From NCBI GenBank assembly GCA_029194535.1, contig JARFXR010000001.1, positions 2,364,721-2,428,720 on the forward strand: DNA of 64,000 nt, read 5' to 3'. Origin of the DNA: Nitrospira sp. (GTDB lineage: Bacteria; Nitrospirota; Nitrospiria; Nitrospirales; Nitrospiraceae). A program made the translations under genes and the position numbers. Shown in pieces: positions 14,545 through 49,221 of this stretch; position 1 is the stretch's first letter, and each line of letters opens with the position of its first letter. Under the pieces are notes generated by a model. The model was given only the letters and a program-made list of their open reading frames with translations. It searched no databases and was not told the DNA's origin.

Positions 14545-14729
14545 ATGCACTATCCTACAGGGGGCCGTGGCCCGGGTGACGTCGGAGACCCTTGGTACCC
14601 GTGAGTCCGAGAGATAGTCTGACGCGGGAGCGTGCGGCACCCCGCAGTGTTGCCACGAGCACGAGAAGCAGAATCGTTCACCAGCAGGCTCCTCCGGGCC
14701 CCGGCCCCCTTAACCGGAAGGAGGTTGCC
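14545..14729 (+). ncRNA. Candidate IS110 bridge-RNA region
   Basis: The non-coding 5' flank of the transposase is GC-rich and foldable (GGGGGCCGTGGCCCGGGTG, GGAGACCCTTGGTACCCG, GTGCGGCACCCCGCAGTG). In IS110 elements outside the IS1111 group this is where the bridge RNA guiding target and donor DNA is encoded. Assignment rests on position and apparent structure only. Confidence 0.35.
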
Positions 14730-15959
14730 ATGGATGCGTTGATTGAGCGTTGCGCTGGACTGGATGTGCACAAAAAAACGGTGGCGGTGTGTGTGCGGGT
14801 GCCAGGCCCTGATGGCGCCCGCCAGCAGCACATCCGTACGGTTGCCACGATGACTGCGGACCTGCTAGCGCTGCGCGCCTGGCTGACGGCGCACCGCGTC
14901 ACCCACGTCGCCATGGAGAACACCGGTGTCTACTGGAAGCCGGTCTACTATGTGCTTGAAGACGCCTTCCGCTGTCTCTTGGTCAACGCCGCCCATATGC
15001 ACAACGTGCCGGGGCGGAAGACCGACGTGCAGGACTGTGTCTGGATCGCGCAATGGCTGGAGTGCGGGCTCTTGCGGGGGAGCTTCGTCCCGCCGGCGCC
15101 GATCCGAGAGTTGCGGGACCTGGTCCGCTCTCGCAAGGTGCTCACCCAAGAACGCGCCCGCGAAGCACAGCGGCTGCACAAGGTGCTGGAGGATACCGGC
15201 GTGAAGCTGGCCTCGGTCGCCAGGGATATTCTCGGCGTGTCGGGTCGCGCGATGCTGGACGCTCTGGCGGCCGGCACCACGGATCCTGACGTGCTGGACG
15301 AGCTGGCCAGAGGCCGTCTGCGCGCCAAGTTGCCGGCGCTGCGACAGGCCCTGGTTGGACGCTTTCGGCGGCATCACGCGTTGCTGGTCAGTGAACTGTT
15401 AGCACATCTCGATTACTTGGAGGGGGCGATCGTCCGGCTCAGTGAGCCGATCGCGGAGCAACTGCGCCCGTTCGGGGCGAGGCTGACCCCTCTGGATGCG
15501 ATCCCGGGGGTGAACCAGCGAACGATTGAAGGGGTCGTGGCGGAGATCGGCCTCGACCTCCGCCTCTTTCCGTCAGATCGTCATCTGGTCAGTTGGGCTG
15601 GTCTCTGCCCAGGTCACCACGAAAGCGCGGGCAAGCATACGAGCGGCACGCCCCGGAAGGGCAACCGTTGGCTGCGCGCCACGTTAGTGGAAGCGGCGCT
15701 GGCCGCCGTCCGGGTCAAAGAGAGTCGGCTCGCAGCCCGCTATCGGCGCATCATGCGTCATCGAGGGCACAAGAAGGCCGTGGTGGCCGTGGCCCACACA
15801 ATCCTTGTGATGGTCTATCATATGCTGAAGCACGGGGTTCCGTACCACGAGCTCGGGGCAAACTATCTCGATCAGCGGGAGCGGGAACAGGCCACGCGCC
15901 GACATGTCAAGCAACTGGAGCGGTTGGGACATCACGTGATCCTCGAACCAGTGGCGTAA
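14730..15959 (+). CDS. IS110-family transposase
   Basis: 409 residues. The N-terminal RuvC-like DEDD domain shows D12 (AGLDVHKK), E63 (MENTGVYWKP), and D99 and D102 (GRKTDVQDC). The C-terminal Tnp20-type domain carries VNQRTIEGVVAEIGLDL and HHESAGKHTSGTPRKGNRWLR with the candidate catalytic serine (S299 or S305). The start at ATG 14730 is supported by GGAAGGAGG just upstream; 46 extra in-frame codons before it are part of the non-coding flank. It appears intact. Confidence 0.93.
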   Translation: MDALIERCAGLDVHKKTVAVCVRVPGPDGARQQHIRTVATMTADLLALRAWLTAHRVTHVAMENTGVYWKPVYYVLEDAFRCLLVNAAHMHNVPGRKTDVQDCVWIAQWLECGLLRGSFVPPAPIRELRDLVRSRKVLTQERAREAQRLHKVLEDTGVKLASVARDILGVSGRAMLDALAAGTTDPDVLDELARGRLRAKLPALRQALVGRFRRHHALLVSELLAHLDYLEGAIVRLSEPIAEQLRPFGARLTPLDAIPGVNQRTIEGVVAEIGLDLRLFPSDRHLVSWAGLCPGHHESAGKHTSGTPRKGNRWLRATLVEAALAAVRVKESRLAARYRRIMRHRGHKKAVVAVAHTILVMVYHMLKHGVPYHELGANYLDQREREQATRRHVKQLERLGHHVILEPVA

Positions 15960-16226
15960 CAGCGGCGGCATTTTCGAAGCAGGGTCTAGTCTGGCAATTA
16001 GCATCAAATTCGATCCTAGCTGTACCCAAAGAGATTCAGCCTATTACTTCGGCATGTAGTTGGCGCGAGTGAGCAGTCATGATGTGAAGGCTCCTGAAAC
16101 CAGGTAATTAGGCGCCTAACACTCGGGCCGGATACCCTGGCCTGTGGATTGCTGGAGGGAAAAGACGCACGCATCGCTCCTGAACTGATCCTCCGGACTT
16201 CGGCAACCCTCGGAAACTATCTGTCC

Positions 16227-17246
16227 ATGGTCCCACATCACATAGTTTTCGTCCATGGGATCGGGGATGAACCAGGGGGTTTTAGCGAGTGGATACAACC
16301 TCGGATCTTCCACACCTTCTCCGGGACAGTATCTCGTCTCATGGGAATAATACCCCCTCCAGAGTCGCTCAACTTTAAGGAGGCCTTGTGGTCCGACGTC
16401 ACTCAACCACAGCAAGACAGGTTGTGGAATGATTTGTTCCCTACCATGCGTATCAAAGGCAAGTCGATGAGGGCAAAGTTGCCGTGGAGACTAATTCTGA
16501 CGGACGTGCCTTCTAATCCCAAGAGTTGGCTACATCAGCTGAAGTATTGGTCCCGACTCAGAAAACTTGCTGTCGTGTATCAGGGGGACTTGATCGCCTA
16601 TATCAAATCCCCCGGTGACAACAAGTACGCGCGCATCCACGACATCATCACTGCCACGATTGCCGAATGTATGAGCGAAACGATGGCGACCGAAGCTACA
16701 GGGCAGAATCCGGCGCCTGTGACGATCGTCGGGCACAGCCTGGGCTCTGTCATCGCTTCCGATGCACTGTACGATGCGCGTCGGAACGGGAACTGTTGGT
16801 GGCCGGCGCAGTTGCGATTGGCGAATTTCTTCTCTCTCGGTTGCCCTCTATCGCTCTATACCCTTCGTTACAAGATGGATACGGAGAAATGCTTCCAGAA
16901 GGCAATTCGCATGCAGAATCCCAACGGTCTCTGGATCAACATTTTCGACCCGCAGGACATCGTCGGATACCCCCTGAAACCACTCAACACAGCCTATTGC
17001 GAGGCCGTCTTTCTGGACAAGGAGATCAGCCTGGGCCACTGGTGGAATCCTTGGCATCTACTCTTACGGTGGACTCCCCTCAATCATTATATGTATTGGG
17101 AGGATTATTCGGTGGCGTACATCATCGGGAAAAAGGCGGCCCTAGATTGGATGCAGACAAACAGGCCTGACCTTGCCCCACAGCTCAACTTCGAGTACGC
17201 CGCCTATCAGGATGAGCTCAGGACAAATCGCTCCAAGTATTCCTAA
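16227..17246 (+). CDS. Alpha/beta-hydrolase-like protein (lipase/esterase-type)
   Basis: A 339-residue protein from ATG 16227 begins MVPHHIVFVHGIGDEPGG, the oxyanion HG strand of alpha/beta hydrolases, and has a nucleophile elbow GHSLGS with Ser171. Candidate acid and His lie in FDPQDIVGYPLKPL and ISLGHWWNPWH. No signal peptide is visible. A TTG start 78 nt upstream would add 26 residues without supporting a domain. It heads a same-strand run with the hypothetical protein, DyP-P450 fusion and FadL-like porin, suggesting ester hydrolysis of a lipophilic substrate. Confidence 0.7.
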   Translation: MVPHHIVFVHGIGDEPGGFSEWIQPRIFHTFSGTVSRLMGIIPPPESLNFKEALWSDVTQPQQDRLWNDLFPTMRIKGKSMRAKLPWRLILTDVPSNPKSWLHQLKYWSRLRKLAVVYQGDLIAYIKSPGDNKYARIHDIITATIAECMSETMATEATGQNPAPVTIVGHSLGSVIASDALYDARRNGNCWWPAQLRLANFFSLGCPLSLYTLRYKMDTEKCFQKAIRMQNPNGLWINIFDPQDIVGYPLKPLNTAYCEAVFLDKEISLGHWWNPWHLLLRWTPLNHYMYWEDYSVAYIIGKKAALDWMQTNRPDLAPQLNFEYAAYQDELRTNRSKYS

Positions 17247-17312: not shown

Positions 17313-17966
17313 ATGCCTGAAATTCGCAAAGGAATTCAGCTCTGCAACAACGTCACGGAATTGACGGCTATCGCTCCGCTGAACCCGGGAGGGGCCGAGC
17401 GGTTACGAATGATCTTCGATCTCCGGAAACGTGCGGAGCAGGCCGGTGATTCGAGCCCGATTGAACAGATCGAATCCATTCACTACGCGCGGTGGGTCAT
17501 TTTGGATGGAGGCACTCGGCTGCTATTTACGAGCAATTTTGATGGTGATCTTGAAGGGTATTTGGCTGAATTCGCGGAGCGGGACGAAGGCCCGCTCAAT
17601 ATGATTTTCGGAAATTGCATCGGCTGGCCCGGCGCAAGACCCGTAGGGCCGTTCATTCAATATGTACGCGATCACATGGTCCCCGCCGAGTACTACTATT
17701 CCGCGTATCCGCGGCATACGGTCAAGGAAGTGAAGCGGGCTCTCTATTGGAAAGGGAGAACGGAACACGCGATCGCCAGGTTGCTCCCGGAACTGGCCGA
17801 TACGGTTGAAGCCATTTCGGAGTGCTGCAAACAATACTCTCAACTCCAGCAGCCCCTTGGCGCCCGGATGATCACGCCAAAAAGCCTCGACGACGCCAGA
17901 GGAAAGATTCACGCCTTTTTGACAGAGCTGGCGCTGCCCACTCCCGAAGATTTCGATAAGCACTGA
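17313..17966 (+). CDS. Hypothetical protein associated with DyP-P450 fusion
   Basis: A 217-residue soluble protein with AGGAGGAGG 6-9 nt ahead of the ATG. The central part (ARWVILDGGTRLLFTSNFDGDLEGYLAEFAE) is a ferredoxin-like strand/helix pattern that recalls the dimeric alpha-beta-barrel fold shared by DyP peroxidases and Cld proteins, but no haem-ligand motif is visible. It ends 14 nt before the fusion gene, so the two are almost certainly co-translated. Function unknown. Confidence 0.7.
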   Translation: MPEIRKGIQLCNNVTELTAIAPLNPGGAERLRMIFDLRKRAEQAGDSSPIEQIESIHYARWVILDGGTRLLFTSNFDGDLEGYLAEFAERDEGPLNMIFGNCIGWPGARPVGPFIQYVRDHMVPAEYYYSAYPRHTVKEVKRALYWKGRTEHAIARLLPELADTVEAISECCKQYSQLQQPLGARMITPKSLDDARGKIHAFLTELALPTPEDFDKH

Positions 17967-17980
17967 TCGGAGGTTCCGCC

Positions 17981-20900
17981 ATGAGCCCGGAGCAACCCCT
18001 ACTAGACCTTCAGGATGTCCAAGGCAATATCCTGAGTAAATACGATGCCGGCTACGCAACCTATTTGTTCTACCGAGTGGACCTCGTCGAACAGGCACTG
18101 CAATGGCTTGATGCTCTCCTCGAATTCATTACCACCGAGAAACGCAAAGTCCACGAGAGGCCCCAGTCAATGGTAAACATCGCAGTCACGTTTCAGGGGT
18201 TCCGGGCACTCGGCCTGTCACCGACCTCTCTCGACAGTTTTCCACCGGAATTCCAACAGGGCATGAAGAATCGGGCGGGTGTGCTCTGTGATTTCGGCGG
18301 AAGCGCGCCGGAAAACTGGGAGCGACCGCTCGGCTCACCCCAGGTCCACATCCTCGCCATCATCCACGGCGCCGACAGGACGCACTGCGATGACCTCGAG
18401 AAGAAGGCTCACGACCAGATTGAGCGCACAACCGGGTTTCCAGCGGGAGTGACCTTGCTGGCGAGGATGGAGGCGGACGGTCTCCCGGGCAACAAAGAAC
18501 ATTTTGGCTTCAAGGATGGAATCAGCCAGCCGTGGATCGAGGGAACGAATCCAGGGCCTCCCATCGAACCATACGGGGGAAAGCGGATCAAACCTTCGAG
18601 AGCCGACGCAAACCTGGCGGATTCCTTTGCACCTTTGAAACTCGGTGAGTTTCTTCTGGGTTACAAAGATGAGCTCGATCGCATCAATCAGCCGCTGATT
18701 CCTCCGGAACTCGGAACCAACGGGACCTATCTCGTCCTGCGAAAGCTCCATCAAGACGTGGCCAAGTTCCATGCACAAATGAAAGAAGAGGCGAAATTCG
18801 TCTTCGGGGATACGGCGGCCAAAGACCGGTTGGCAGCCCTCATGGTCGGTCGCTGGCCGAGCGGTTGTCCCGTCGATCGATCCTGGGAACGTGATGATCC
18901 TGCGTTCACGACCGATGAAACAATCAACGCCTTTGCGTTTGTGGATGAAAACACCGGAACGGTCGATGACAAGGGGATCCATTGTCCCGTCGGCGCGCAC
19001 ATTCGCAGGACCAATCCGCGGGATTTAAAGCTGGACACACACGGCAATCTGATTCTTGAATCGATGAGCACGAGACACCGGATGATCCGGCGCAGTTTAC
19101 CCTATGGGCGGCCGATACAAACAAAAGACGACGAGACCGAAGATCGCGGTCTGGTGTTCATAGCCCTGGTGTCCGATATCGAAAGGCAATTCGAGTTCGT
19201 TCAGCGCAACTGGGTCAACGACGGCGATCCGTTTCGCTTGGATCGAACCGACCGCGATCCACTCCTTGGGAACAATCGAGATCAACGGGATGTGACCCCC
19301 TCCCATGCTCCGCAGACCTATTCTGACATTCTCACAAGAATGTGTCTCGCAGGCGGCATCGCCGGCGCCGTCACAGCAGTCGTCCGTAACCCCACCACGA
19401 TCGAGATTACTTACAAACCATCCTCCGGAATCAAACTGGACAGGACGGCTGGGTTTCCGGAGAAGTTAGCGCTATCGCTTCAAGTTGAGAAGGTAGAGAT
19501 AACCCCCCACCCCGACGGCGTTTCGGCGATTGTCACGATTTTCTCATTCAATGAAACCGCTCGGAAGTTCACAGTGCCCGCTGGAACGCGGCGACCTTGG
19601 GCGCTGAATCTCCCGGAGTTCGTCACGACGCGAGGTGGAGAGTATTTCTTTCTTCCCAGCCTAACCGCGTTGAAGTCGCTTGTGCAGGGCGATCTGTCTT
19701 CCTTCCGGAGAGAATTCGAATTGATCTCGACACGGTATCGAGACCCCGCCAAACGATCTGAGGAGCAGGGGCAGATGATCAGGAGCTGGCTGGTCTATCG
19801 TCCAAAAGAAATGTTGCAAGAATTGCGAGAGATGGCCGATGGACCGCAAGGGACAATTTTTACAATGGACGGGTATAAAGTATTCGGAAATCCAATTTAC
19901 ACTGCCAACCCTCCGATTGCCGTCATCACGAAGTACGCGGACGTCGTCGAAGTGCTCGACGGGAGGAGACATCCTGAGTTTAGTGTGGCGCTGTACCGGA
20001 AGCAGATGGATCTTCCGCCTGGGCATCCGCCACGAGGTCCGTTTATTCTCGGCAGGGAGCTGTCGGACCCGCTGTATCAGAGGGAGATGCCCATCCTCGC
20101 CAAGGCCGTCCAAGACAGCCCCGTCACTCACCAGCTCGGTCAGATCATCACCGCGATCCTTGATCCGATTTTCAACGATCTCAAGCAGCGCAAATCGGGA
20201 AAGATTGATGTGATTCAGGATCTCGCCTGGCCCATTCCGCTCGGCATCAATGCGAGATATTTCGGAGTGCCCGGTCCGGATCCGGAAAGCTTCAAACGCT
20301 GGTTGCGCGATATCTACCGTGACCTGTTTCTGAACCTGAGGGGAATTCCGGAATGGTCACAGGCTGCAGATAGGGCCGCAGCGGAAATGAACCCCTATCT
20401 GGACGGCCTGATCCAGGAATATGACATGCGGACGGAGTCCGTGTTGAAACAGCTCATCTTGGAGGAACAGAAGGCGCAGCCCGCATTTGCTCCGCACTTT
20501 GTCAGACGCAACATCATGGGGCTCACGGTCGGGGTGGTGGAAACCACCCTGAAGGCCGTCGCCAGGACGATCGACCAACTGATCCGCCGCCCGCGGCAGC
20601 TCAAAGAGGCTCAGGAGGCCGCAAGGCTCAACGATAAGGCTCTCGTGCTCCGGTACACCTTTGAAGCCATGAGATTCAACCCACAAAACCATCTCCTATT
20701 TCGAATGTGCACGAGCGACACGGAAATCGCGGTTGGGACCCCACGACAGACGACAATCAAGAAGGGCACGGTGGTTTTTGCCGCGACCCTGCCGGCCATG
20801 TTCGATGCCGAAGGACCGTTCAAGCAGCCGAACGAGTTCAGGACCGATCGGAACCAGCGTGACTATTTGTTCTTCGGGTACGACGGACATGAATGTATGG

Positions 20901-21040
20901 GCCGTTGTTTGATACCGGTTGTGTTCCAGGAATTGTTCACGCGTCTGCTTCAACTCAAGGATCTCCGAAGGGCGATCGACGATCCGTTCGACCCGATCGA
21001 CTTGTTTCCGAAACACTTCTACCTGGAGTTCCAGGCATGA
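17981..21040 (+). CDS. DyP-type peroxidase fused to cytochrome P450
   Basis: A continuous 1019-residue frame. Residues 1-430 are a DyP-type peroxidase: VQGNILSKY, GXXDG motif GFKDGISQP (176-184, catalytic D179), haem ligand H340 in PVGAHIRRTNPRD, and FIALVSDIERQFEFVQ. Residues 440-610 are a linker or small beta domain of unknown type. Residues 620-1019 are a P450: I-helix GVVETT (851-856), K-helix ExxR E895-R898 (FEAMRFNP) and the haem-thiolate loop FGYDGHECMGR with C972, where the usual Gly at C-4 is Asp. It carries two haem sites in one chain and has no signal peptide. The organisation recalls fungal peroxidase-P450 dioxygenase fusions, but the peroxidase half is a different family. Confidence 0.9.
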   Translation: MSPEQPLLDLQDVQGNILSKYDAGYATYLFYRVDLVEQALQWLDALLEFITTEKRKVHERPQSMVNIAVTFQGFRALGLSPTSLDSFPPEFQQGMKNRAGVLCDFGGSAPENWERPLGSPQVHILAIIHGADRTHCDDLEKKAHDQIERTTGFPAGVTLLARMEADGLPGNKEHFGFKDGISQPWIEGTNPGPPIEPYGGKRIKPSRADANLADSFAPLKLGEFLLGYKDELDRINQPLIPPELGTNGTYLVLRKLHQDVAKFHAQMKEEAKFVFGDTAAKDRLAALMVGRWPSGCPVDRSWERDDPAFTTDETINAFAFVDENTGTVDDKGIHCPVGAHIRRTNPRDLKLDTHGNLILESMSTRHRMIRRSLPYGRPIQTKDDETEDRGLVFIALVSDIERQFEFVQRNWVNDGDPFRLDRTDRDPLLGNNRDQRDVTPSHAPQTYSDILTRMCLAGGIAGAVTAVVRNPTTIEITYKPSSGIKLDRTAGFPEKLALSLQVEKVEITPHPDGVSAIVTIFSFNETARKFTVPAGTRRPWALNLPEFVTTRGGEYFFLPSLTALKSLVQGDLSSFRREFELISTRYRDPAKRSEEQGQMIRSWLVYRPKEMLQELREMADGPQGTIFTMDGYKVFGNPIYTANPPIAVITKYADVVEVLDGRRHPEFSVALYRKQMDLPPGHPPRGPFILGRELSDPLYQREMPILAKAVQDSPVTHQLGQIITAILDPIFNDLKQRKSGKIDVIQDLAWPIPLGINARYFGVPGPDPESFKRWLRDIYRDLFLNLRGIPEWSQAADRAAAEMNPYLDGLIQEYDMRTESVLKQLILEEQKAQPAFAPHFVRRNIMGLTVGVVETTLKAVARTIDQLIRRPRQLKEAQEAARLNDKALVLRYTFEAMRFNPQNHLLFRMCTSDTEIAVGTPRQTTIKKGTVVFAATLPAMFDAEGPFKQPNEFRTDRNQRDYLFFGYDGHECMGRCLIPVVFQELFTRLLQLKDLRRAIDDPFDPIDLFPKHFYLEFQA

Positions 21041-21049
21041 GGTGACAGC

Positions 21050-22417
21050 ATGCGAAACGCAACAGGCTCGAGTGCGGCATTACCGTGGTTATCTCTGGCA
21101 TTGCTGCTTATGTTGTCAATGCCCGCCATAGCCCGGGGAGAAGCCTTTCGTGTGCTGGATCAAGGTGCGGCTGCGTCTGGGCAGGGGACCGCCTTTGCCG
21201 CTCAGGCAGACGACCCATCCGCAATCTACTACAATCCTGCCGGCATGACGCAACTGCAGGGAGTCCAATTTTACGGAGGACTCCTCTTGGTTGGAGGGTC
21301 CTACAACTACACCAGCCCCACCGGCGGCAACTACAAGGGCAACCTGGACGGATCCATCGCCTGGCCGCCACCGACGAATTTTTACCTCACGGCAGGCCTA
21401 GATCGCTATGACATTGGTTTCCTAAAGAATTTGACCTTGGGGGTCGGCGTCAACTCCCCCTATGGGCTCATCATTAATTGGCCGCAGAATGTGCCGTTTT
21501 CAGCGTTGGATACCTTTGCAACCTTGCCGTTGCTTGATATCAAGCCGACCATGGCCTACCGGTTCAACGACTATCTCTCCATTGGTGCCGGTCTTGATAT
21601 CTATACCTTTGCCAATTTTGCCGGAGAAGGCGCGGTCCAGGTGAACTCATTCATTCCTCCTTCGACAAGTCTGGAGTTGAACCTGAAAGATACCGCCGTC
21701 GGTTACAACATTGGTGTGATGCTGACGCCCTGGCGAAACGAAGCCGGCAAACCACGTTTGAACTTGGCCTTTGTGTACCGTAGCCAGACCACGTTAAATC
21801 TCAACGGAAACTTCCTGGTGAACGGTGGGTTACTCGCAGATGCTAGAGTGGACCTCACTCTGCCAAATGTCTACACGGGAGCTGTGGCCTACTGGCCGGT
21901 ACGCGATGCAGAGCACGAATGGAAATTGGAGTTTGATCTTGATTACGCTGACTGGCACAGCATGAAGCAACTGAACATCCAGCTCAGCAATGGGACTACG
22001 CTGCCGGAGCCACGCGGTTGGAGCGGCGTGTTTATCCCCCGCGTAGGCACCGAGTATAAGTGGCTGGGGCCAGACGTGCTCCCTGAATGGGAAGTCGCCG
22101 CTCGGTTCGGATATATTCGTTCACAAACGCCTGTTCCCGAACAGACGTTTGAGCCAGCCGTGCCCGACGCCAATTACAATTCCTTCTCCGTAGGTCTCGG
22201 CTTTCTCTGTAAAGACCGGGGACGATTTCTCGGAATTATCAAATGCAACACTCCACTGTTGGGTCCTGTCGGCATAAAGGGCATCGGGTTGGATGTGGCG
22301 TATAAGAACCAGCTTTACGAATCCAGGACGATCACGAACAATCTCCGCCCCGTAATCAACGGCACATATGATACGATCTTGCACGCCGGTGTCTTGAATC
22401 TCCGAATAAACTTCTGA
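21050..22417 (+). CDS. FadL/TodX-type outer-membrane transporter for hydrophobic compounds
   Basis: The 455-residue protein has a signal peptide (LALLLMLSMPAIARG) followed at once by EAFRVLDQGAAASGQGTAFAAQADDPSAIYYNPAGM, the hatch-domain signature of OMPP1/FadL. Alternating beta strands follow, ending in a C-terminal Phe (LRINF), as expected for a BAM substrate. The family moves long-chain fatty acids or hydrocarbons across the outer membrane. It starts 9 nt after the DyP-P450 fusion, so uptake and oxidation are probably coupled. Confidence 0.9.
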   Translation: MRNATGSSAALPWLSLALLLMLSMPAIARGEAFRVLDQGAAASGQGTAFAAQADDPSAIYYNPAGMTQLQGVQFYGGLLLVGGSYNYTSPTGGNYKGNLDGSIAWPPPTNFYLTAGLDRYDIGFLKNLTLGVGVNSPYGLIINWPQNVPFSALDTFATLPLLDIKPTMAYRFNDYLSIGAGLDIYTFANFAGEGAVQVNSFIPPSTSLELNLKDTAVGYNIGVMLTPWRNEAGKPRLNLAFVYRSQTTLNLNGNFLVNGGLLADARVDLTLPNVYTGAVAYWPVRDAEHEWKLEFDLDYADWHSMKQLNIQLSNGTTLPEPRGWSGVFIPRVGTEYKWLGPDVLPEWEVAARFGYIRSQTPVPEQTFEPAVPDANYNSFSVGLGFLCKDRGRFLGIIKCNTPLLGPVGIKGIGLDVAYKNQLYESRTITNNLRPVINGTYDTILHAGVLNLRINF

Positions 22418-22444: not shown

Positions 22445-24760
22445 TTGGCTACCGACAAGCATCAAGGGTCAGCACCTGACCGAATGGAGAGTCTCCACTC
22501 TAGCCCTCCTTGGGATACCCCTGACATTCGCGCCCATGCTCCGTCCGCTACAACACCAATGCTGTATCCAAAGGCGCATCGGATACTCGAGCGTCCGTTT
22601 ATGGAATTTCGTCCGTTCGGGAAGGACGTCGACGGCAGCTCGATTCGAGACATGACAGGCGTATCGATCCGATCCAACGTGGAATACCTGGAGGAATCAG
22701 TCGCGCGAACTCACGGGACAGATGCCGGAAAGCGAGCAGTCGAAGACTTGATTCAACGTCTCAATGCGCGGATCCCAGATCGCGCCTACCATGTCACGGC
22801 GCAATTCTTGAAGAATCCCTGGACATCCTATTCCAATGAATTTACCGCCTATCTGGTTGAGTTTTGCGTGGAGCTCTCCGGCGATCCGGACTTCCAATTC
22901 CACATGGGACGTGAAAAGCTGATTCCACCCATCATGCAAACCCTCATGCGTCCATTCTCGGTCAAGAGCATCTACCGAGGCGCCGCTCGCTGGATTCAAC
23001 ATTACGCGAAGGATTCTTACGATCTGCATGGCATCGAAGTCGCCGACGACTATGCGATTCTCAGGATGACGCTGATGGATCGGGCCTTACGGCAATTTGG
23101 ACCATATCGCCGCGCCTGTGCCAAAATTTGGTGCAATGCCCTGAAAGTCGGCGTGTCGATCGTTCCCGAAAAGGTGCATCACTTGGAACAGGCCACGATG
23201 GTCGACCGGCGATGCATTGTGGAAGGAGATGACTACTGTGAATGGGAGGTCCGTTGGACTGAGCCGACGAGATGGTACCCAGGCAAACGGATTGCTACGG
23301 GTGTGGCGCGTAAGGTGTTAAAGGATGAGATTGGCGGACGAGAGCGCGTTATCGAGGAACAAACTTCCTCACTGAACACTCGGCATGAGGAACTCGAAAA
23401 AGCGTACCTTGAACTCCAGCAGACGGCGGTCGAATTGCGGCGACGAGTCGATCATCTCACTACCCTGTACGAGGTCGGCCTTGCCTTCACATCCAGCCGT
23501 GATCGAGAGACCCTCGTTCGTCACGCCATGGAAACATTGATCCATAAACTGACCTTTGACCGGGTCATGATCGTCTTCTATGATCCGCTACGACAAGTTG
23601 CTCACAGCGCACGCCTTGTAGGCGTCTCCTCAGAAGTAGCCCGCTTTGCCGAACAGCTTGAAATTCCTGTCACAGACCCAGCTAGTTTCGAAGGCATCGT
23701 CTTACAGCAGGGACAACCGATCCTGATTCATGAGATATCCCAAGTCTTGGATCAACTCCACCCACTGTACCGGGAACTGGCGACGAGAACAGGAACCAAG
23801 TCCTTTATTACTGTTCCTCTGAAGGTCAAGGGGTGGATCCTCGGGTCTCTCACTGTAGATCGAGGCCAGGCACACAGTTTGACCCAGGATGATCTTGAAG
23901 TGATGGTCACCTTCGCCAATCAACTGGCCATCGCCTTGGACAACGTCGCGGCGTATCGGGAGATTGAGGAGCTGAACACCGGGCTTGAGCAGAAAGTCCT
24001 TGAGAGGACGATCCAGCTCGAGACGGCGAACAAGCAGTTACAAGAGTTGAATCAACTGAAGTCCTCGTTCGTGTCCATGGTGTCGCACGAACTGCGCACG
24101 CCGATGACGTCGATTCGCACCTATGTCGAGAATATGCTGGACGGCGTGACGGGCGCCGTGAACGACAAGCAATCGCAGTATCTGCGCCGCATCCAATTCA
24201 ACATCGACCGGCTGACCAGAATGATCGTCGATCTGCTCGATCTCTCGCGCATCGAGGCCGGCCGGGTCGAGCTCAGACGGGAGTCGATCCCGATCGTCGG
24301 CTGGATGAACGAGCTGGTTGAAGGATTGCAGTCGCTCGCGGCCGGCAAATCCGTGACCATCGAATCGCACTCTCTTGCGACTCTGCCGGCTGTTCATGCG
24401 GACCGGGACAAGCTCACGCAGATTCTGACGAATCTCATCGGCAACGCGATCAAATTTACCCCGGCGGGGGGACGGATTGCCGTGGAGGCACAGGTCCACG
24501 ATGACAGCGACTTTCTGCGGATCTGTGTGTCCGACACCGGCTGCGGCATCCCGCCTGCCGAGTTGCCGAAAGTCTTCGAGAAATTCTTCCGAGGAACGAC
24601 CACATCAGCGGAGGCCAGAGGAGCCGGGTTGGGTCTAGCGATCGCCAAGAGTCTCGTCGAGTTGCATGGCGGCTGCATCTGGGTTGAAAGCATGGTCGGT
24701 CAAGGCACGTCGTTCTACTTCACGCTTCCCTTCTATTCGACACAGGAAACAATCAGGTGA
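22445..24760 (+). CDS. Soluble hybrid sensor histidine kinase (V4R-like, GAF, HisKA, HATPase_c)
   Basis: 771 residues with no membrane span. Residues about 60-280 form an HNOB/V4R-like sensory domain ending RRCIVEGDDYCEWEVRW, the Cys-containing V4R signature. A coiled-coil and then GAF (about 345-495) follow, then HisKA with phosphoacceptor H548 (SHELRTPMTSIRTYVENMLDG), then HATPase_c with N box NLIGNAIKFTP, G1 DTGCGIP and G2 GAGLGLAIAKSL. It starts at TTG 22445 behind GAGAGG; ATG 22484 is an alternative. Placed right after the fadL-like gene, it may sense the substrate of that module. No response regulator is adjacent. Confidence 0.85.
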   Translation: MATDKHQGSAPDRMESLHSSPPWDTPDIRAHAPSATTPMLYPKAHRILERPFMEFRPFGKDVDGSSIRDMTGVSIRSNVEYLEESVARTHGTDAGKRAVEDLIQRLNARIPDRAYHVTAQFLKNPWTSYSNEFTAYLVEFCVELSGDPDFQFHMGREKLIPPIMQTLMRPFSVKSIYRGAARWIQHYAKDSYDLHGIEVADDYAILRMTLMDRALRQFGPYRRACAKIWCNALKVGVSIVPEKVHHLEQATMVDRRCIVEGDDYCEWEVRWTEPTRWYPGKRIATGVARKVLKDEIGGRERVIEEQTSSLNTRHEELEKAYLELQQTAVELRRRVDHLTTLYEVGLAFTSSRDRETLVRHAMETLIHKLTFDRVMIVFYDPLRQVAHSARLVGVSSEVARFAEQLEIPVTDPASFEGIVLQQGQPILIHEISQVLDQLHPLYRELATRTGTKSFITVPLKVKGWILGSLTVDRGQAHSLTQDDLEVMVTFANQLAIALDNVAAYREIEELNTGLEQKVLERTIQLETANKQLQELNQLKSSFVSMVSHELRTPMTSIRTYVENMLDGVTGAVNDKQSQYLRRIQFNIDRLTRMIVDLLDLSRIEAGRVELRRESIPIVGWMNELVEGLQSLAAGKSVTIESHSLATLPAVHADRDKLTQILTNLIGNAIKFTPAGGRIAVEAQVHDDSDFLRICVSDTGCGIPPAELPKVFEKFFRGTTTSAEARGAGLGLAIAKSLVELHGGCIWVESMVGQGTSFYFTLPFYSTQETIR

Positions 24761-32832: not shown

Positions 32833-35800
32833 ATGGCCTTTATGTCACCCGGCCATCTGAGAGGTTCCACGGTGAAGCCATGCATGGAGACTTATTTCCA
32901 AGGTTGTTGCTCTATTGTCATTGGATCCTTATGGCTACTATTTTCCTTCCAGAGTGTGGACACCCATGCCGCGCCCCCTATCACACCATCTGGGCTTAAC
33001 ACACAGGTTAACCTTTCCCAGACCCCTCCAATAGGCAAGGTGCAGTACGACATTACGGGTGGCACGAGAGCGGGAACCAATCTGTTTCACAGTTTGGGTG
33101 ATTTCAACGTTCCGACCAACAACATCGCTAACTTTTTGAACGATTCCGGACTAGCCACTTCAAACATACTCAGCAGGGTGACTGGAGGAAATCCATCCAA
33201 CATCTTCGGGACGATCCAGACAACCGGATTTGGAAATGCGAACCTGTTTCTAATGAATCCGGCTGGAGTGATCTTCGGTCCGAACGCGACGTTGAATGTG
33301 GGAGGGATGGCGACCTTCACGACAGCAGATTACCTGAGACTCGCCGAAGTCAACGCTGGAGCTGGAATGTTCTACGCCAATCCTTCAGCCAACAGTATTC
33401 TGACTACAGCCCCTGTCGCTGCCTTCGGATTCCTTGGAACAAACCCCGCTGCCATCACCGTGCAGGGCAGCCAACTCTCCGTCCAGCCGAATCAAAGCAT
33501 TTCTTTAGTTGGTGGTGATACGACGATTCAGGGAGGCACGTTGCATAACGGAGCTGTTCAGTCAGCCAAGCTTTCGGCACCCGGTGGTCATATTAATCTT
33601 GTGAGTGTGGCATCGCCCGGCGAAGTGCTCTACTCCACATTTCAAACCGGCCCAAACGTTAACGGTCAGTCATTCAGCAGTATGGGAAATGTTACCCTGT
33701 CTGGCGGTTCACTTTTGGATGTGTCGGCAAACGCCGCTGGTATGGTGCAGATCCGCGGAGGCCAGCTCGTGATAGATGACGCCACTATCTTAGCGAATAC
33801 CATCGATGGCAATGCAGCACCCGTTGCTGTCAATATTAAGATGACTGGCGACGTGACGATTTCAGATACGCGTGCCGTGACTGCTATCTCTGCTACGACA
33901 AGCGGAACCGGAAATGCCGGTGAGGTTCAAATCACGTCCGCTAACATGCGAGCTACCTCGACCGACCCCGACCTCACATTGTTTGCCTTGATTGATACTC
34001 ATTCGACCGGTGACGGACGTGCTGGAAACGTGAACATCACGACGGGCAACCTGACCGTGACGAGCCCGAGCACTGGACCAACCTGGTATTTCATTGATAC
34101 CGGTCCTCAAGGAGCCGGACTCGGAGGTGATGTCACAATCACGGCCAGCAATCACATCGAACTGACCAACACATACCTCAGCACCGGCACGCAGAATGCT
34201 GAACTACTTGGCTTGGAACCCAGCACTTCTGCTGGAAAACTTACGATTACGGCGAATAGTCTTCAGACGAAGAACGTCATTCTAGATACGCACGCGACGA
34301 CTGCCTTCGACGAGACTCAATTGGGTGGCGATATCACGCTCAATGTTCATGATATCAACATGGTCAACACTCAGGTGGCGGCTAGCGCGCTGGGTCGAGG
34401 GGGCGCCATCACAATTGATGCCGACAGTCTTATTGCTACGGACAATTCACAATTTCAAACATTTAATGCATTTGGAGGACCAGGTAGTGGAATTGACTTT
34501 ACCGGTCGCATATTGGAGATGAGAAACGGGAGCAATTGGAACACGAGCACTTTCGGTGACTTTAAGGCAGGGGATATCGTTGTGAATGCCACTGATCACG
34601 TCAGTCTTGCGGGGATAGCCAATGAGTTTGGGCATTTCAATCCTAGTGGTTTGTTCAGCAATTCGGTGGGCGGAGCGGGCACCCAAGGCGTCGCTGGCAA
34701 CATTACCGTGACGACGCCGAAACTGACAATGGAACAAGGCCGAATCAACACAAGTACCGCAACCAGCGGCTCCGGAGGTACTGTAACCATCAATGCCGGT
34801 ACAATGGAAATATCCGGTGAGTTCCCCTTCCCGGACTTTGGAGGATTTTTCGGTATTACCAATATCCATCCCAGTGGAATCTTCACACAGACAGTTGGAA
34901 GCGAATTCTGTTCAGGTGCCTGTGGCAACGCTGGAAACATCAACATTACGACCGGTTTTCTAATTATGGGGAACGGCTCACAAATTAATAGTGGCACAAC
35001 AAATTCTGGTCACGGCGGCAACATCATGATTCAAACAACAAACCAGATCGCGATGTCTGGTACGTTGAGCAACGGAGACTCGGTCGGAGTTTTTAGCCGC
35101 ACGGTCGGAACTACCCCAGATTCTGGCTCCGGCGGGAACATATCTCTTACTGCTGGTCGATCGGTCACTATGTCAAATGGCGCAACTATCTCCAGCAGCA
35201 GCACCGGCCCAGGTAATACTGGCAACATCGATATCAGTGCCGGTAATCAGTTCACCATGGCGAACAGCTCGGTCACGACGGAGGCCAATCAATCGGGTGG
35301 CGGCATCATCAAGATCACGACCGAGCCCAGCGGCACGGTGCAACTCTCGAACAGCAGGATCAGCGCGTCGGTGCTCGACGGCACCGGCGGGGGCGGGAGC
35401 GTGAACATCGATCCGCAATTTGTGATTCTACAGAACAGTCAGATCCTGGCGCAGGCGGTGCAAGGGCCGGGCGGCAACATCAACATCACGATCACCAATG
35501 ATGGGCTCTTTTTACCGGATGCCACAAGCGTCGTGAGCGCCTCCTCGCAATTCGGCCAAAGCGGTAGCGTGATTATCCAATCTCCCAATGCCCCGGCTGG
35601 CGGCAAGATCCAGCCTCTGAACAGCACTCCGCTACAAGTGACCGCGTTGCTCAGTCAGCGTTGCGCGGCCATCGCACGCGGAGAAGTCAGCAGCTTTGTC
35701 GTGGCAGGCCGCGACACCTTGCCGACCGAACCAGGCGGGTGGCTGACGAGCCCCTTGGCGTCCATCCCCGCCGAGGGAGGAATCTCGGTGGAGGCCGGTG

Positions 35801-35925
35801 TGCCGGCGATCGCAACTCACTCCGACGGGTCGCTGTTCGTGTCCCTGCGCCGGCTCCCCTCTCCAAGCCAAGTGGCACAGATCCTTTCAGAGGAAGATTG
35901 GATCGCAGGCTGCGAATCTTCGTAG
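32833..35925 (+). CDS. TpsA-type exoprotein (filamentous haemagglutinin-like), first copy
   Basis: 1030 residues. An extended signal peptide (CCSIVIGSLWLLFSFQSVDTHA) is followed by the TPS secretion domain: NLFHSLGDFNVPTNN, ATSNILSRVTGGNPSNIFGTI, NANLFLMNPAGVIFGPNATL, VGGMATFTTADYL. A long beta-helical passenger follows, with Asn/Thr/Gly repeats (NAGNINIT, GGNI). The C-terminus carries LLSQRCAAIARGEVSSFVVA and GRDTLPTEPGGWL, resembling the SSFVV-GR-LP motif of cyanobacterial TpsA proteins. It is expected at the cell surface, exported by the TpsB at 51245. The start is set by GGGAGAA next to the hairpin. Confidence 0.9.
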   Translation: MAFMSPGHLRGSTVKPCMETYFQGCCSIVIGSLWLLFSFQSVDTHAAPPITPSGLNTQVNLSQTPPIGKVQYDITGGTRAGTNLFHSLGDFNVPTNNIANFLNDSGLATSNILSRVTGGNPSNIFGTIQTTGFGNANLFLMNPAGVIFGPNATLNVGGMATFTTADYLRLAEVNAGAGMFYANPSANSILTTAPVAAFGFLGTNPAAITVQGSQLSVQPNQSISLVGGDTTIQGGTLHNGAVQSAKLSAPGGHINLVSVASPGEVLYSTFQTGPNVNGQSFSSMGNVTLSGGSLLDVSANAAGMVQIRGGQLVIDDATILANTIDGNAAPVAVNIKMTGDVTISDTRAVTAISATTSGTGNAGEVQITSANMRATSTDPDLTLFALIDTHSTGDGRAGNVNITTGNLTVTSPSTGPTWYFIDTGPQGAGLGGDVTITASNHIELTNTYLSTGTQNAELLGLEPSTSAGKLTITANSLQTKNVILDTHATTAFDETQLGGDITLNVHDINMVNTQVAASALGRGGAITIDADSLIATDNSQFQTFNAFGGPGSGIDFTGRILEMRNGSNWNTSTFGDFKAGDIVVNATDHVSLAGIANEFGHFNPSGLFSNSVGGAGTQGVAGNITVTTPKLTMEQGRINTSTATSGSGGTVTINAGTMEISGEFPFPDFGGFFGITNIHPSGIFTQTVGSEFCSGACGNAGNINITTGFLIMGNGSQINSGTTNSGHGGNIMIQTTNQIAMSGTLSNGDSVGVFSRTVGTTPDSGSGGNISLTAGRSVTMSNGATISSSSTGPGNTGNIDISAGNQFTMANSSVTTEANQSGGGIIKITTEPSGTVQLSNSRISASVLDGTGGGGSVNIDPQFVILQNSQILAQAVQGPGGNINITITNDGLFLPDATSVVSASSQFGQSGSVIIQSPNAPAGGKIQPLNSTPLQVTALLSQRCAAIARGEVSSFVVAGRDTLPTEPGGWLTSPLASIPAEGGISVEAGVPAIATHSDGSLFVSLRRLPSPSQVAQILSEEDWIAGCESS

Positions 35926-44847: not shown

Positions 44848-44913
44848 ACTTGAACTCTAGGGAGCGATCGTGCACCGTCACCGCTTCTTAGGAACTCATT
44901 GGAGGGACCGGAT

Positions 44914-47900
44914 ATGCCGCGCTGGGATCTAGGGAAACACCCGCGAGACATACTTCTTCGACAAGTCGGTTGCGTGGTTTTATGCATCGGACTACTTCTT
45001 ATGGACCATCATTCAAGCCCCTCTGCCCGCGCTGCCACTTCGCTCACGCCGACACCGGGCCCTGCCGGGCTCGGCACCCAAGTGCTGCCGCCCAGCGGCG
45101 GCAACACCTACGGCATTCGGGGCGGAACCACGGTGGGCACAAACTTGTTCCACAGTTTCGGTCAGTTCAGCGTGGCCACGGGAGATATCGCGCAATTTCA
45201 AACGTCCAACCTACTCCCCAACGGTGCGATGAGCAACATTCTCAGCCGGGTGACCGGCGGAAACCCCTCCGCTATCTTCGGGACGATCGACAGCGCGACC
45301 TTCTATCCCGGCGCGAACCTCTTTCTCATGAACCCCGCCGGCGTTCTCTTCGGGCCAACTGCGACTTTGAATATCGGTGGGATGGCGACGTTTACCACTG
45401 CCGATTACCTCCGTCTCGTTGAGGTCGATGGCGTGAGTGGAATCTTCCACGCAAATCCTGCAACAACAAGTGTATTGACCACTGCCCCAGTCGCCTCCTT
45501 CGGCTTTCTGGGCTCGAATCCCGCCGCCATCGCCATACAGGGCAGCCAACTTGCTGTGGCAACCGGAACAGGACTCTCACTAGTCGGAGGGAAAACCGGT
45601 TTCACCTTTACCGATCCGGACACAGGACTGACCGCCTCTGCTCCTGACGGCGTGACGATGACCGGCGGTAGCCTCTCAGCCCCCAGCGGGCAGATCAACC
45701 TGGTGAGCGTCGCGTCAGCGGGAGAGATTTCAACCGTGGACTTCCTCCCCGATCCAAGCATGGCAATGGGCCCCATTTCGCTCTCCCAAGGAGCAGTCGT
45801 TGACGTGTCGGGTGACGGCGGGGGGACCGTCCGCATTCGTGGGGGCCGGTTCGTGATGGACCAGGGAGCGATCCTGATCGCCCATACAACCGGCGCCAAT
45901 GACGGAGCGCCCACAGCAATCAGCATCAATGTGACCGACGAAGTTTCGCTTAATCACCAGAGCGGATTATTCGCCTGGGCCAGAGGTGCGGGACGAAGCG
46001 GCAACATCGAAGTTACCGGCCGGACCATCGAAATCGCGGACGGTTCCCTTGTCTATACGAACAGCACCGACGCAGGGACTCCGGGAAATATCACCGTGAC
46101 GGCAACTGATACAGTCTCAGTCCGTGGAGCCGACGAGCTTGGCAACCCCAGCGAAATACTCAGTGATTCATTGGGGCTGGCATCAACCGGGTCGATAACG
46201 CTCCGGGCCCCGGTCATCAACCTACTAGACATGGGCGCAGTTGAGACTCGCATGTTTGGTTTCGGTGAAGGAGTTCGTGCCGGAGACATCACGATCGAGG
46301 CGACGAATCTAAATCTGCTCAGCGGAGGGAAGATTAACATCGTGAGCGGAAGCGGCGCGCCGACCGGAAACATTGCCATCACCGCAACGGATTCAATCAC
46401 TCTCGTCGGAACGAACGATTTCGGCACAACGAGTTTCATTACAAATGAGAACACTTCCGGCGGCACCGGCACGATCACGATTCACACAGGAAGTCTGACA
46501 CTTAGCGATCAAGCAAGAATCAATAGCACCACCTTCCTTGACTCAGATCCGGCAGCCGCAAACACTCCGAAAATCGCAATCACCGCGGATTCCTCCATTG
46601 CCCTTTCTTCTGGCAGCAGAATCGACATTGGCGGGTCCATTTCCGATACGGGACGACTGGAGTTGTCTACTCAGAATCTCACGATGTCCGGCACAAGTTC
46701 GATCACGACGTTGTCCAACGCCAACGGGGCATCCGGTCCGATCGTGATGAATGTCCAAAACCTGACCGTGTCAGAGGGAAGCCAGATCGTAAGTTCATCG
46801 GCGCTGGGGCTCGGTCGCGGGGGCGACATCACGGTCAATGCCACTGCATCCGTCGTCGTAACCGGTCAGGGAACAGATCCGTTTGGAGGCACGCTGACGA
46901 GCGGAATCTTCTCGAATACGATCAGCGGTCTTGACGACCCAACCTTCGCTGGCAACGCGGGAAATATCGCGGTTACAGCTCATTCCATCGAAGTGTCCAG
47001 CGGAGCGAGAATCGACAGTAGCAGTCAGCTCCTGGCCTATGGGAACGCTGGGACCATTGACCTCCGGGCTCCGACGATCAACGTGAATGGTGGCATCATC
47101 TCGACCTCGACCGAATTTGCCGGGCAAGCAGGCTCGATCTCGCTGCATGCGGATGCCGTCACAGTCAACAACGGCGGCCAGCTCACCAGCAGCAGTGTCG
47201 TGCGCCAAACACCGATTTTCGAGGGAGAGATTATTCCTCCTCCCACCGGCAACGCCGGCAACATCACCATCCAAGGCGTCGCCAGCCCAGCGCAATCGGT
47301 CGTCATCGACGGCACAGGCAGCGGTCTGTTCACCAACACACAAGGTTCCGGCGCAGGCGGGAACATCTTCGTGAACGGCAACTCCGTCATGCTCTCTAAC
47401 GAGGGCGCGTTGTCGGCCACGACCTCAGGTTCAGGAAATGCGGGGAATATCACTGTAGTGTCCGATACGGTCTCACTCACCAATTTTGCAACGATTTCAG
47501 CAAGCACTTCTGGAGAGGGTGCTGGAGGTAGCATCCACATATCGGCACAAAACACAATCAGCGCTGTTGATTCATTCATCAACGCGAGCGCGAACTCTGT
47601 ACAACCTGGTGCAGGCAGCGGCGGTCACGTTCTCCTAAGTGCTCCGACGATTAACGTTGCTGGGGGCGACATCTCGACGCTGACCATTGGACCAGGAAAC
47701 GCTGGTGATATCAGCTTTCAGGCAGGGCAATTCACATTGAGCGCAACTGAGGGCGCTCCGGGACAAGTCGAAGCCAGCACGTCTGGGCCTGGTCACGGTG
47801 GAAGCATCTCTGTCCTTGGACTCACCGGTCCTGGCAGCCAAGCAAGCGATGTGACGCTATCAGGACTCAGCAGTCTCCGGAGCGAAACCCAAACTCTTAC

Positions 47901-49221
47901 CGGAGGGACAGCAGGGAACATCGGCATTGAAACTGTTCGGCTGTCGCTCACGGAGGGAAGTGCAATCACAACTGCCGCACTTAACAGTCCCGGAAACGCG
48001 GGCAACGTGACGCTAAACGCGACGGACTCGTTCCTGGTATCGGGCAGTCGCGTGACGAGCGATGTCCTATTTGGTAGTAGCGGCAATGGTGGTCAAATCA
48101 CCGTGACTACCCCGAGTCTGACAGTCACCCAAGGGCCTAACGGATTTGGAGGAGTCATAGCCGGAGTTATTTCAACGAGCACAGGCTCATCGGGCAATGC
48201 AGGTTCCGTGACGATCAACACAAACAATCTGACCTTGGCTGATGGAGGAAGAATAACGAGCAGCAGTTTCCTTGACGATCCAATTTTCCCTCCAGCGACC
48301 GGCGCAGCAGGCACCGTGGTTGTTCAGGGACTCAATGGGCCAGGTACGCAAGCCAATTTGATCGCCATAGCCGGGCAGGATAGCTCCGGTCAATCCAGTG
48401 GCATCTTCACGACCACGCAAGGCATTGGGGCCGCAGGCGATATCACGGTCTACGCCCAGTCTGTCACGCTTCAGAATAACGCGCAGATTTCGAGCAGCAG
48501 CACGGGCACGGGGATAGCTGGGAACATCGCTATTACCGCGAATCAGATTTTTACCGCCGTCAACAGCTCGGTCACGACCGAAGCGAATAACTCCAGCGGC
48601 GGCATCATTAAGATCACGACGAACCCCAACGGCACGGTAGAACTGTCCAACAGCACGATCAGCGCCTCGGTCCTCGACGGCACCGGCGGAGGTGGGAGCG
48701 TGAATATCGATCCGCAATTTGTGATTTTGCAGAACAGTCAGATCCTCGCGCAGGCGGTGCAGGGGCCGGGCGGCAACATCAACATCACGATCACCAACGG
48801 CGGGCTCTTTTTGCCGGATGCCACCAGTGTCGTGAGCGCCTCCTCGCAGTTCGGCCAACAAGGCACGGTCACGATTCAAGCACCGATCGCCCCAGCCGGC
48901 GGCAAGATTCAGCCGCTCGGAAAAGCGCCCCTTCAAGTGACGGCGTTGCTCAGCCAGCGCTGTGCGGCGATCGCGCGTGGGGAAGTCAGCAGCTTTGTCG
49001 TGGCGGGTCGCGACACCCTGCCGACTGAGCCCGGCGGCTGGCTGACAAGTCCGTTGGCCTTGGGGTCATCGGAGGCAGGATCGGCAATGCAGGCCGGAAA
49101 CCGAGGGCTCCCGTCTGAATCCTCTGACCCAACGATCGTTTCGCTGCGCCGCCTCCCCTCTGCTTGGGCAGTAGCGGCACAACTCGTTGAAGATGACTGG
49201 GTAGCAGGCTGCGGATCGTAG
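44914..49221 (+). CDS. TpsA-type exoprotein (filamentous haemagglutinin-like), second copy
   Basis: 1435 residues from ATG 44914, which follows GGAGGGACC; the TTG 15 nt upstream is part of that Shine-Dalgarno. The signal region is CVVLCIGLLLMDHHSSPSARA. The TPS domain closely matches copy 1 (GGNTYGIRGGTTVGTNLFHSF, SNILSRVTGGNPSAIFGTI, ANLFLMNPAGVLFGPTATL). A very long beta-helical passenger of GNI/GGxI repeats follows. The last 230 codons, including SQRCAAIARGEVSSFVVAGR, are almost identical to TpsA1 also at the DNA level. It has no catalytic domain, so an adhesin or surface-fibre role is likely. Confidence 0.9.
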   Translation: MPRWDLGKHPRDILLRQVGCVVLCIGLLLMDHHSSPSARAATSLTPTPGPAGLGTQVLPPSGGNTYGIRGGTTVGTNLFHSFGQFSVATGDIAQFQTSNLLPNGAMSNILSRVTGGNPSAIFGTIDSATFYPGANLFLMNPAGVLFGPTATLNIGGMATFTTADYLRLVEVDGVSGIFHANPATTSVLTTAPVASFGFLGSNPAAIAIQGSQLAVATGTGLSLVGGKTGFTFTDPDTGLTASAPDGVTMTGGSLSAPSGQINLVSVASAGEISTVDFLPDPSMAMGPISLSQGAVVDVSGDGGGTVRIRGGRFVMDQGAILIAHTTGANDGAPTAISINVTDEVSLNHQSGLFAWARGAGRSGNIEVTGRTIEIADGSLVYTNSTDAGTPGNITVTATDTVSVRGADELGNPSEILSDSLGLASTGSITLRAPVINLLDMGAVETRMFGFGEGVRAGDITIEATNLNLLSGGKINIVSGSGAPTGNIAITATDSITLVGTNDFGTTSFITNENTSGGTGTITIHTGSLTLSDQARINSTTFLDSDPAAANTPKIAITADSSIALSSGSRIDIGGSISDTGRLELSTQNLTMSGTSSITTLSNANGASGPIVMNVQNLTVSEGSQIVSSSALGLGRGGDITVNATASVVVTGQGTDPFGGTLTSGIFSNTISGLDDPTFAGNAGNIAVTAHSIEVSSGARIDSSSQLLAYGNAGTIDLRAPTINVNGGIISTSTEFAGQAGSISLHADAVTVNNGGQLTSSSVVRQTPIFEGEIIPPPTGNAGNITIQGVASPAQSVVIDGTGSGLFTNTQGSGAGGNIFVNGNSVMLSNEGALSATTSGSGNAGNITVVSDTVSLTNFATISASTSGEGAGGSIHISAQNTISAVDSFINASANSVQPGAGSGGHVLLSAPTINVAGGDISTLTIGPGNAGDISFQAGQFTLSATEGAPGQVEASTSGPGHGGSISVLGLTGPGSQASDVTLSGLSSLRSETQTLTGGTAGNIGIETVRLSLTEGSAITTAALNSPGNAGNVTLNATDSFLVSGSRVTSDVLFGSSGNGGQITVTTPSLTVTQGPNGFGGVIAGVISTSTGSSGNAGSVTINTNNLTLADGGRITSSSFLDDPIFPPATGAAGTVVVQGLNGPGTQANLIAIAGQDSSGQSSGIFTTTQGIGAAGDITVYAQSVTLQNNAQISSSSTGTGIAGNIAITANQIFTAVNSSVTTEANNSSGGIIKITTNPNGTVELSNSTISASVLDGTGGGGSVNIDPQFVILQNSQILAQAVQGPGGNINITITNGGLFLPDATSVVSASSQFGQQGTVTIQAPIAPAGGKIQPLGKAPLQVTALLSQRCAAIARGEVSSFVVAGRDTLPTEPGGWLTSPLALGSSEAGSAMQAGNRGLPSESSDPTIVSLRRLPSAWAVAAQLVEDDWVAGCGS

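Follow-up and report, generated by a model that had tools for sequence, protein, structure and literature searches.

Does a single reading frame of a Nitrospira genome really encode two haem enzymes, and if so, what might they do together? We approached this question in a 64,000-nucleotide stretch of contig JARFXR010000001.1, from here on called the window (Table 1). The original prediction had described a frame of 1019 residues containing a complete DyP-type peroxidase and a complete cytochrome P450, and this description proved correct. The frame begins with ATG and has no internal stops. Its N-terminal half scores above the cut-off of TIGR01413 (1.8e-33, 116.2 bits; cut-off 100.5) and above both Pfam cut-offs (PF21105, 34.4 bits against 27.5; PF20628, 31.5 bits against 20), its C-terminal half matches solved P450s, and the haem-site residues of both halves are in place. 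The best PDB match of the DyP half is DrDyP (8re3, 3.4e-61). The predicted GFKDG motif and H340 are both present, and D179, H340 and R370/R371 are unchanged across the three fusions compared and across ten DyPs. Judged by its similarity scores together with the GXXDG aspartate, the proximal histidine and the distal arginine, the N-terminal half can be assigned to the DyP family.

The same domain pair was found in one frame in four other genomes: G003 from the same genus, G174 and G319 from other genera of the family, and G060 from another family of the order. These orthologous chains measure 923–994 residues. The DyP::P450 fusion is old and conserved. The gene order lipase-like hydrolase, 217-aa protein (hereafter 217), fusion, FadL and sensor kinase is common to the window, G003, G174 and G319, the three relatives carrying lipase-like orthologues at the equivalent position; the cluster in G060 comprises 217, fusion, FadL and kinase. 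In all four relatives the kinase adjoins FadL, with 51–82% identity to that of the window. Since the genes in the window are separated by gaps of only 66, 14, 9 and 27 nt and show Shine-Dalgarno-like sites, they very likely form one five-gene operon. The lipase-like gene probably starts near position 16227 (Met27). Within the phylum, the 217 family is present in only 12 of 396 genomes. The sensor kinase has an N-terminal part of ~340 residues that matches no Pfam family and could sense a substrate or product. An IS110-family transposase gene (14592–15959) lies directly upstream of the operon, and the two large proteins encoded at 32833–35925 and 44899–49221 have two-partner-secretion (TPS) domains. 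A PADLOC search for anti-phage defence systems returned no match for the fusion, the 217-aa protein or the lipase-like protein.

Table 1. Features of the operon and of the fusion protein, with positions in the window
Feature	Position	Strand	Basis or remark
Lipase-like alpha/beta hydrolase, GHSLGS nucleophile motif	16149..17246	+	Lipase_3 0.001, just under cut-off
217-aa protein, unnamed family	17313..17966	+	homologues beside DyP in many phyla
DyP::P450 fusion	17981..21040	+	1019 aa; orthologous fusion in 4 further genomes
DyP domain, residues 8-434	18002..19282	+	phmmer alignment to DrDyP 8re3 residues 7-400
GFKDG distal motif, residues 176-180 (D179)	18506..18520	+	read in sequence
H340, position of proximal haem ligand	18998..19000	+	invariant in fusions and DyPs compared
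R370-R371, distal Arg position	19088..19093	+	invariant in fusions and DyPs compared
FtsK-alpha-like insert, residues ~444-524 (~80 residues)	19310..19552	+	PF17854; gap in 4 of 4 orthologues
Last DyP segment, residues 529-567	19565..19681	+	aligned to DrDyP 403-441
P450 domain, residues ~603-1019	19787..21037	+	phmmer to PDB P450s; clade tree
I-helix segment with E854-T855	20510..20548	+	alignment of fusions and clade
ExxR, E895-R898	20663..20674	+	invariant in 14 clade P450s
Cys loop FGYDGHECMG, C972, Asp968 instead of Gly	20873..20902	+	clade alignment
FadL/TodX outer-membrane hydrophobic-compound transporter	21050..22417	+	PF03349 2.7e-35; syntenic in 5 of 5 fusion genomes
GAF sensor histidine kinase	22445..24760	+	Pfam scan; conserved beside FadL

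Residues 430–620, initially taken as the junction between the two enzymes, fit this role only in part. An insert within the last part of the DyP occupies residues ~444–524, and residues 529–567 still belong to the DyP. The insert sits between the DyP body and its last strand, with flanks that align to residues 400 and 403 of DrDyP, and it is present only in the window copy among the five fusions aligned. It matches PF17854 with 25.3 bits in a six-frame search (cut-off 22.9) and with 20.8 bits in a whole-protein hmmscan. The FtsK proteins of relatives are up to 36% identical to it over 63–73 residues, and the FtsK encoded in the same genome is 28% identical. A recent copy of this resident ftsK can be rejected as the source, given this low identity and DNA matches that amount to chance words only. 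The GC3 of the insert matches that of the host gene. An AF2 model of the DyP with its insert, the structure prediction that had been called for at the junction, reached a pLDDT of 56 (about 43–65 within the insert) and informs on secondary structure only. We take the insert for a piece of FtsK that a surface loop captured in an old event and that has since diverged; most likely it is a late, lineage-specific addition that plays no part in the chemistry.

The P450 half is divergent. Searched by phmmer against solved P450s it finds many PDB entries (best 1.7e-17), and its score for PF00067 (1.5e-4, 21.1 bits) falls slightly below the cut-off of 22.8. A six-frame PF00067 search of the entire genome consequently returned zero matches, with the fusion itself being missed. 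Pfam-based surveys of P450s therefore overlook the most divergent members of this clade. The predicted ExxR motif and C972 were confirmed, and ExxR, the HxC motif and the haem cysteine are invariant in 14 clade members. The Cys loop, FGYDGHECMG, departs from the canonical FGxGxHxCxG by an aspartate at the usual glycine of FGxG. This substitution, to which the original prediction had drawn attention, is real in the window protein but is not a fixed feature: the fusion of G319 has serine at this position, the loop of the G060 fusion is longer, and glycine or another residue occurs in most other members of the clade. This variation weakens the idea that the aspartate is the key catalytic change. 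The I-helix is altered as well, reading GVVET against AGHET, with the Glu-Thr acid–alcohol pair (E854-T855) retained. Three of the four orthologues also keep this pair, G319 has Asp-Pro instead, and the P450 of Skermanella and the megafusions described below lack it. Pfam and NCBIfam scans detected no reductase domain in the fusion protein.

Further evidence on this P450 comes from the company kept by its relatives. In a P450 tree, a 100/100 branch separates all 17 peroxidase-linked P450s from seven ordinary ones. These 17 had been picked by similarity to the window P450, so a control with ordinary P450s matters. A profile (A3) built from 14 clade P450s was used to search 398 Pseudomonadota and 189 Myxococcota genomes. 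Each of the 19 loci examined, one of which is identical to a profile row, has a haem peroxidase or dioxygenase as neighbour or fusion partner, compared to none of 20 loci with ordinary P450s in Sphingomonadaceae (Fisher p = 1.5e-11). The partner is a DyP at 16 loci (six of them single-frame megafusions) and a RoxA-like di-haem relative of NF040606 at three. Clade members from Methylobacterium and Bradyrhizobium likewise adjoin NF040606 di-haem proteins related to RoxA, the group that also includes the 10S-dioxygenase PA2077 of P. aeruginosa and PA2078 (PMC4496055). Rhizobial clade members adjoin a COX-like protein (An_peroxidase; prostaglandin G/H synthase in the PDB, 4.6e-53). On rhizobial plasmids (L083, L086, L094) the COX-like peroxidase gene directly follows the P450 gene, possibly a bacterial COX–P450 pair in its own right.

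A scan of genome contigs found DyPs mostly unfused. In the DyP tree, the window-type DyPs group with the P450-linked DyPs of Pseudomonadota and Myxococcota (87/99), and the main catalase-linked group is separate from them with moderate support. Chains of ~1420–1620 residues with the order P450-X-217-DyP occur in Novosphingobium, Pararhizobium, Sulfitobacter and other Alphaproteobacteria, and 9 of 200 Sphingomonadaceae genomes hold both halves within one frame. Window-type fusions (100/99) and these reversed fusions (100/100) form distinct clades in the P450 tree, hence the fusion arose at least twice, in opposite orders. Skermanella provides a split form, with a 217-fusion, a DyP and a P450 encoded side by side. 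A cassette of this Skermanella type, followed by a gene that we call glutaminase-like from reading its sequence, is also present on four phage contigs in IMG/VR (L141–L144) that are related to one another and come from different samples. In all four the cassette (2815–8291 in L141) occupies the same site, with an endolysin-like gene on one side and internal-virion/tail genes on the other. It runs on the opposite strand and is apparently phage-borne cargo.

The operon also gives a context to the 217-aa protein, which has no Pfam or NCBIfam name and for which a profile search of the PDB gave nothing credible. Its homologues adjoin DyP genes in Alphaproteobacteria, Acinetobacter, Deinococcus, Streptomyces, Granulicella and Nostoc, frequently in the order catalase-like, 217, DyP, and the family recurs as a domain within the large reversed chains. 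An AF2 model (mean pLDDT 62) has a beta-alpha-beta-beta-alpha core at mostly 78–91. Aligned with VIA-align, this predicted core resembles ABM/NIPSNAP/mutarotase-type barrels (Z up to 7.6, best match an ABM/SchA-like protein), a resemblance that is no more than suggestive of a dimeric alpha+beta barrel. Divergent catalase-like proteins pair with 217 and DyP (L066–L069, L080, L082); the one compared with the PDB had a best match of E 0.07, and the plasmid-encoded DyP of Deinococcus radiodurans is flanked by a 217-family and a catalase-like protein. These partners may be catalase-related hydroperoxide enzymes.

Several neighbours point to lipids. In one pseudomonadotal locus (L114) the genes are ordered 217, a second 217-like gene, DyP, patatin phospholipase, P450 and FadL, and overlap from the second 217-like gene onward. 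Both FadL and a lipid hydrolase, here one of an unrelated type, therefore recur with the DyP/P450 pair. Other 217/DyP pairs have oleate hydratase, 3-hydroxyacyl-CoA dehydrogenase, thioesterase or patatin as neighbours, the first and the last two also being among the lipid genes at distant versions of the module. FadL and the lipase do not fix the substrate.

Direct observation covers the fusion and its conservation, the gene cluster, the catalytic residues and the partner pattern of the P450 clade. The module itself is well supported; its chemistry, meaning substrate, reaction order and independence from a reductase, we infer. Our leading account, still a tentative one, is that the operon encodes a cytosolic two-haem enzyme that oxidizes lipids. 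An unsaturated lipid or fatty acid would be imported by FadL or released by the hydrolase. The DyP domain, aided by the 217-aa protein, would oxidize it to a hydroperoxide or a radical/peroxide intermediate and hand this to the tethered P450, which would split the O–O bond and rearrange the product without a reductase to a diol, epoxy-alcohol, allene oxide or aldehyde. Either the substrate or the product may be the signal for the sensor kinase. Elsewhere, a COX-like or RoxA-like di-haem protein would replace the DyP ahead of the same kind of P450, and a catalase-like protein would replace the P450 beside DyP and 217; in oxylipin pathways, too, P450s and catalase-related proteins are alternatives to each other. 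This division of labour, with the DyP and 217 making or feeding the lipid (hydro)peroxide and the P450 rearranging it as in fungal dioxygenase–P450s, appears the most likely because of the HEC motif, the changed loop glycine, the changed I-helix and the loss of the acid–alcohol pair in relatives. The comparison with fungal peroxidase–P450 fusions, already part of the original prediction, gains independent support from the COX-like and RoxA/10S-DOX-like proteins of the fatty-acid-dioxygenase type next to the nearest P450 relatives, and also agrees with the lipid hydrolases and FadL in the operon. No DyP has been described as a lipid dioxygenase in the literature searched, and at pH 7.5 the nearest DyP with a solved structure, DrDyP, shows no activity (PMC10820274).

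Two other schemes for the pair are unlikely, yet deserve to be weighed. The P450 could be a conventional O2-dependent monooxygenase of lipids or hydrocarbons served by an unlinked ferredoxin and reductase, with the DyP merely removing leaked H2O2 or lipid peroxides. Retention of E854-T855 in the window protein and most orthologues, as in O2-activating P450s, speaks for this scheme, and redox partners of P450s are often unlinked. A Methylorubrum cluster of P450, catalase, 217 and DyP even includes a ferredoxin and a reductase, though its P450 falls outside the clade. We abandoned the redox-partner neighbourhood as a gauge of self-sufficiency, since ferredoxin or reductase genes lie near 2 of 34 clade loci and 4 of 20 control loci, which does not separate the two sets. 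With the Glu-Thr pair kept and this count indecisive, the conventional monooxygenase is a live rival. It is opposed by the Asp-Pro of G319, by the loss of the pair in Skermanella and the megafusions, and by the pairing of the same clade with COX-like and RoxA-like proteins, which are of a dioxygenase type and not scavengers. An equally improbable scheme has the P450 hydroxylate a lipid or aromatic compound as a peroxygenase driven by H2O2, with the DyP acting as a second, radical-forming oxidase on its product in the manner of secondary-metabolite tailoring. Both halves can in principle use peroxide, and the altered I-helix and lack of a reductase domain would suit such a reaction, but we noticed no biosynthetic cluster around the versions examined, and the neighbours are genes of lipid uptake or hydrolysis.

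Much less probable is a non-catalytic half, in which the P450-like part would serve the DyP allosterically or structurally, akin to P450-derived glycosyltransferase activators. The best NCBIfam P450 match is indeed such an activator (TIGR04515, far below its cut-off) and the Cys-loop glycine is changed, but the invariance of ExxR, HxC and the haem cysteine in 14 clade members speaks against this reading. Finally, an assembly error, which had been named as grounds for discarding the prediction, or chance read-through of two genes can be eliminated, as the fusion and its synteny recur in five genomes and GC3 is even along the whole frame.

If the lipid-oxidizing reading is taken further, DyP and 217 would be a bacterial lipid oxygenase doing the job of COX or DOX enzymes, and together with the P450 clade would constitute a widespread, unrecognized oxylipin-forming system that was fused twice independently and is even carried by phages. 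This extension is possible, but we regard it as doubtful. What DyP peroxidases do physiologically, and on which natural substrates, is still unclear (PMC10820274), and a lipid oxygenase, if real, would provide them with a physiological substrate class. A DyP–P450 fusion in an operon with FadL and a lipase, and the partners of its P450 clade, make this role directly testable on lipids and hydroperoxides. Our literature search, with most subscription journals outside its scope, found no description of a DyP–P450 fusion or of such a module, let alone the many characterized bacterial examples that had also been named as counting against the prediction. The gene set is widespread and apparently undescribed.

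How does the fusion compare with known systems? Its closest solved relative, DrDyP from Deinococcus radiodurans (DR_A0145, PDB 8RE2/8RE3; class C / V, PMC10820274), is unfused, has neither a P450 nor the FtsK-alpha-like insert, and contains Met190 within its GXXDG motif. The oomycete CYP5619 proteins also join a peroxidase/dioxygenase and a P450 in a single chain; these are eukaryotic, and DyP is absent from the main text of the report (PMC5919972). As far as the account given in PMC13049297 goes, the cyanobacterial COX-like 10S-DOX and its catalase-related hydroperoxide lyase (Brash 2014) likewise combine an oxygenase with another haem protein for conversion of the hydroperoxide, and involve neither DyP nor P450; catalase-like proteins do adjoin DyP and 217 elsewhere. 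In the oleate-diol synthase pair PA2077/PA2078 of P. aeruginosa, two haem enzymes sequentially make and then isomerize a fatty-acid hydroperoxide. Both are di-haem c-type proteins, in contrast to DyP and P450, yet relatives from their superfamily adjoin P450s of the window's clade. In fungal dioxygenase–P450s, one haem domain makes a fatty-acid hydroperoxide and a reductase-free P450 rearranges it; these enzymes are self-sufficient, and their loop keeps HxC, which is HEC in 9-AOS (PMC13049297). Their N-terminal domain is a COX-superfamily dioxygenase (An_peroxidase), whereas the window fusion has a DyP of unrelated fold and no PF03098 match in Pfam and NCBIfam scans. Because the COX-type domain is absent, the fusion is not a member of the dioxygenase–P450 pairs, even if likened to them in its working. 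Like the fungal linoleate diol synthases and the Ppo/PSI proteins, it carries two haem domains per chain, the peroxidase type first and the P450 second, and its P450 similarly retains the bacterial-type HxC in a Cys loop that departs from the canonical form.
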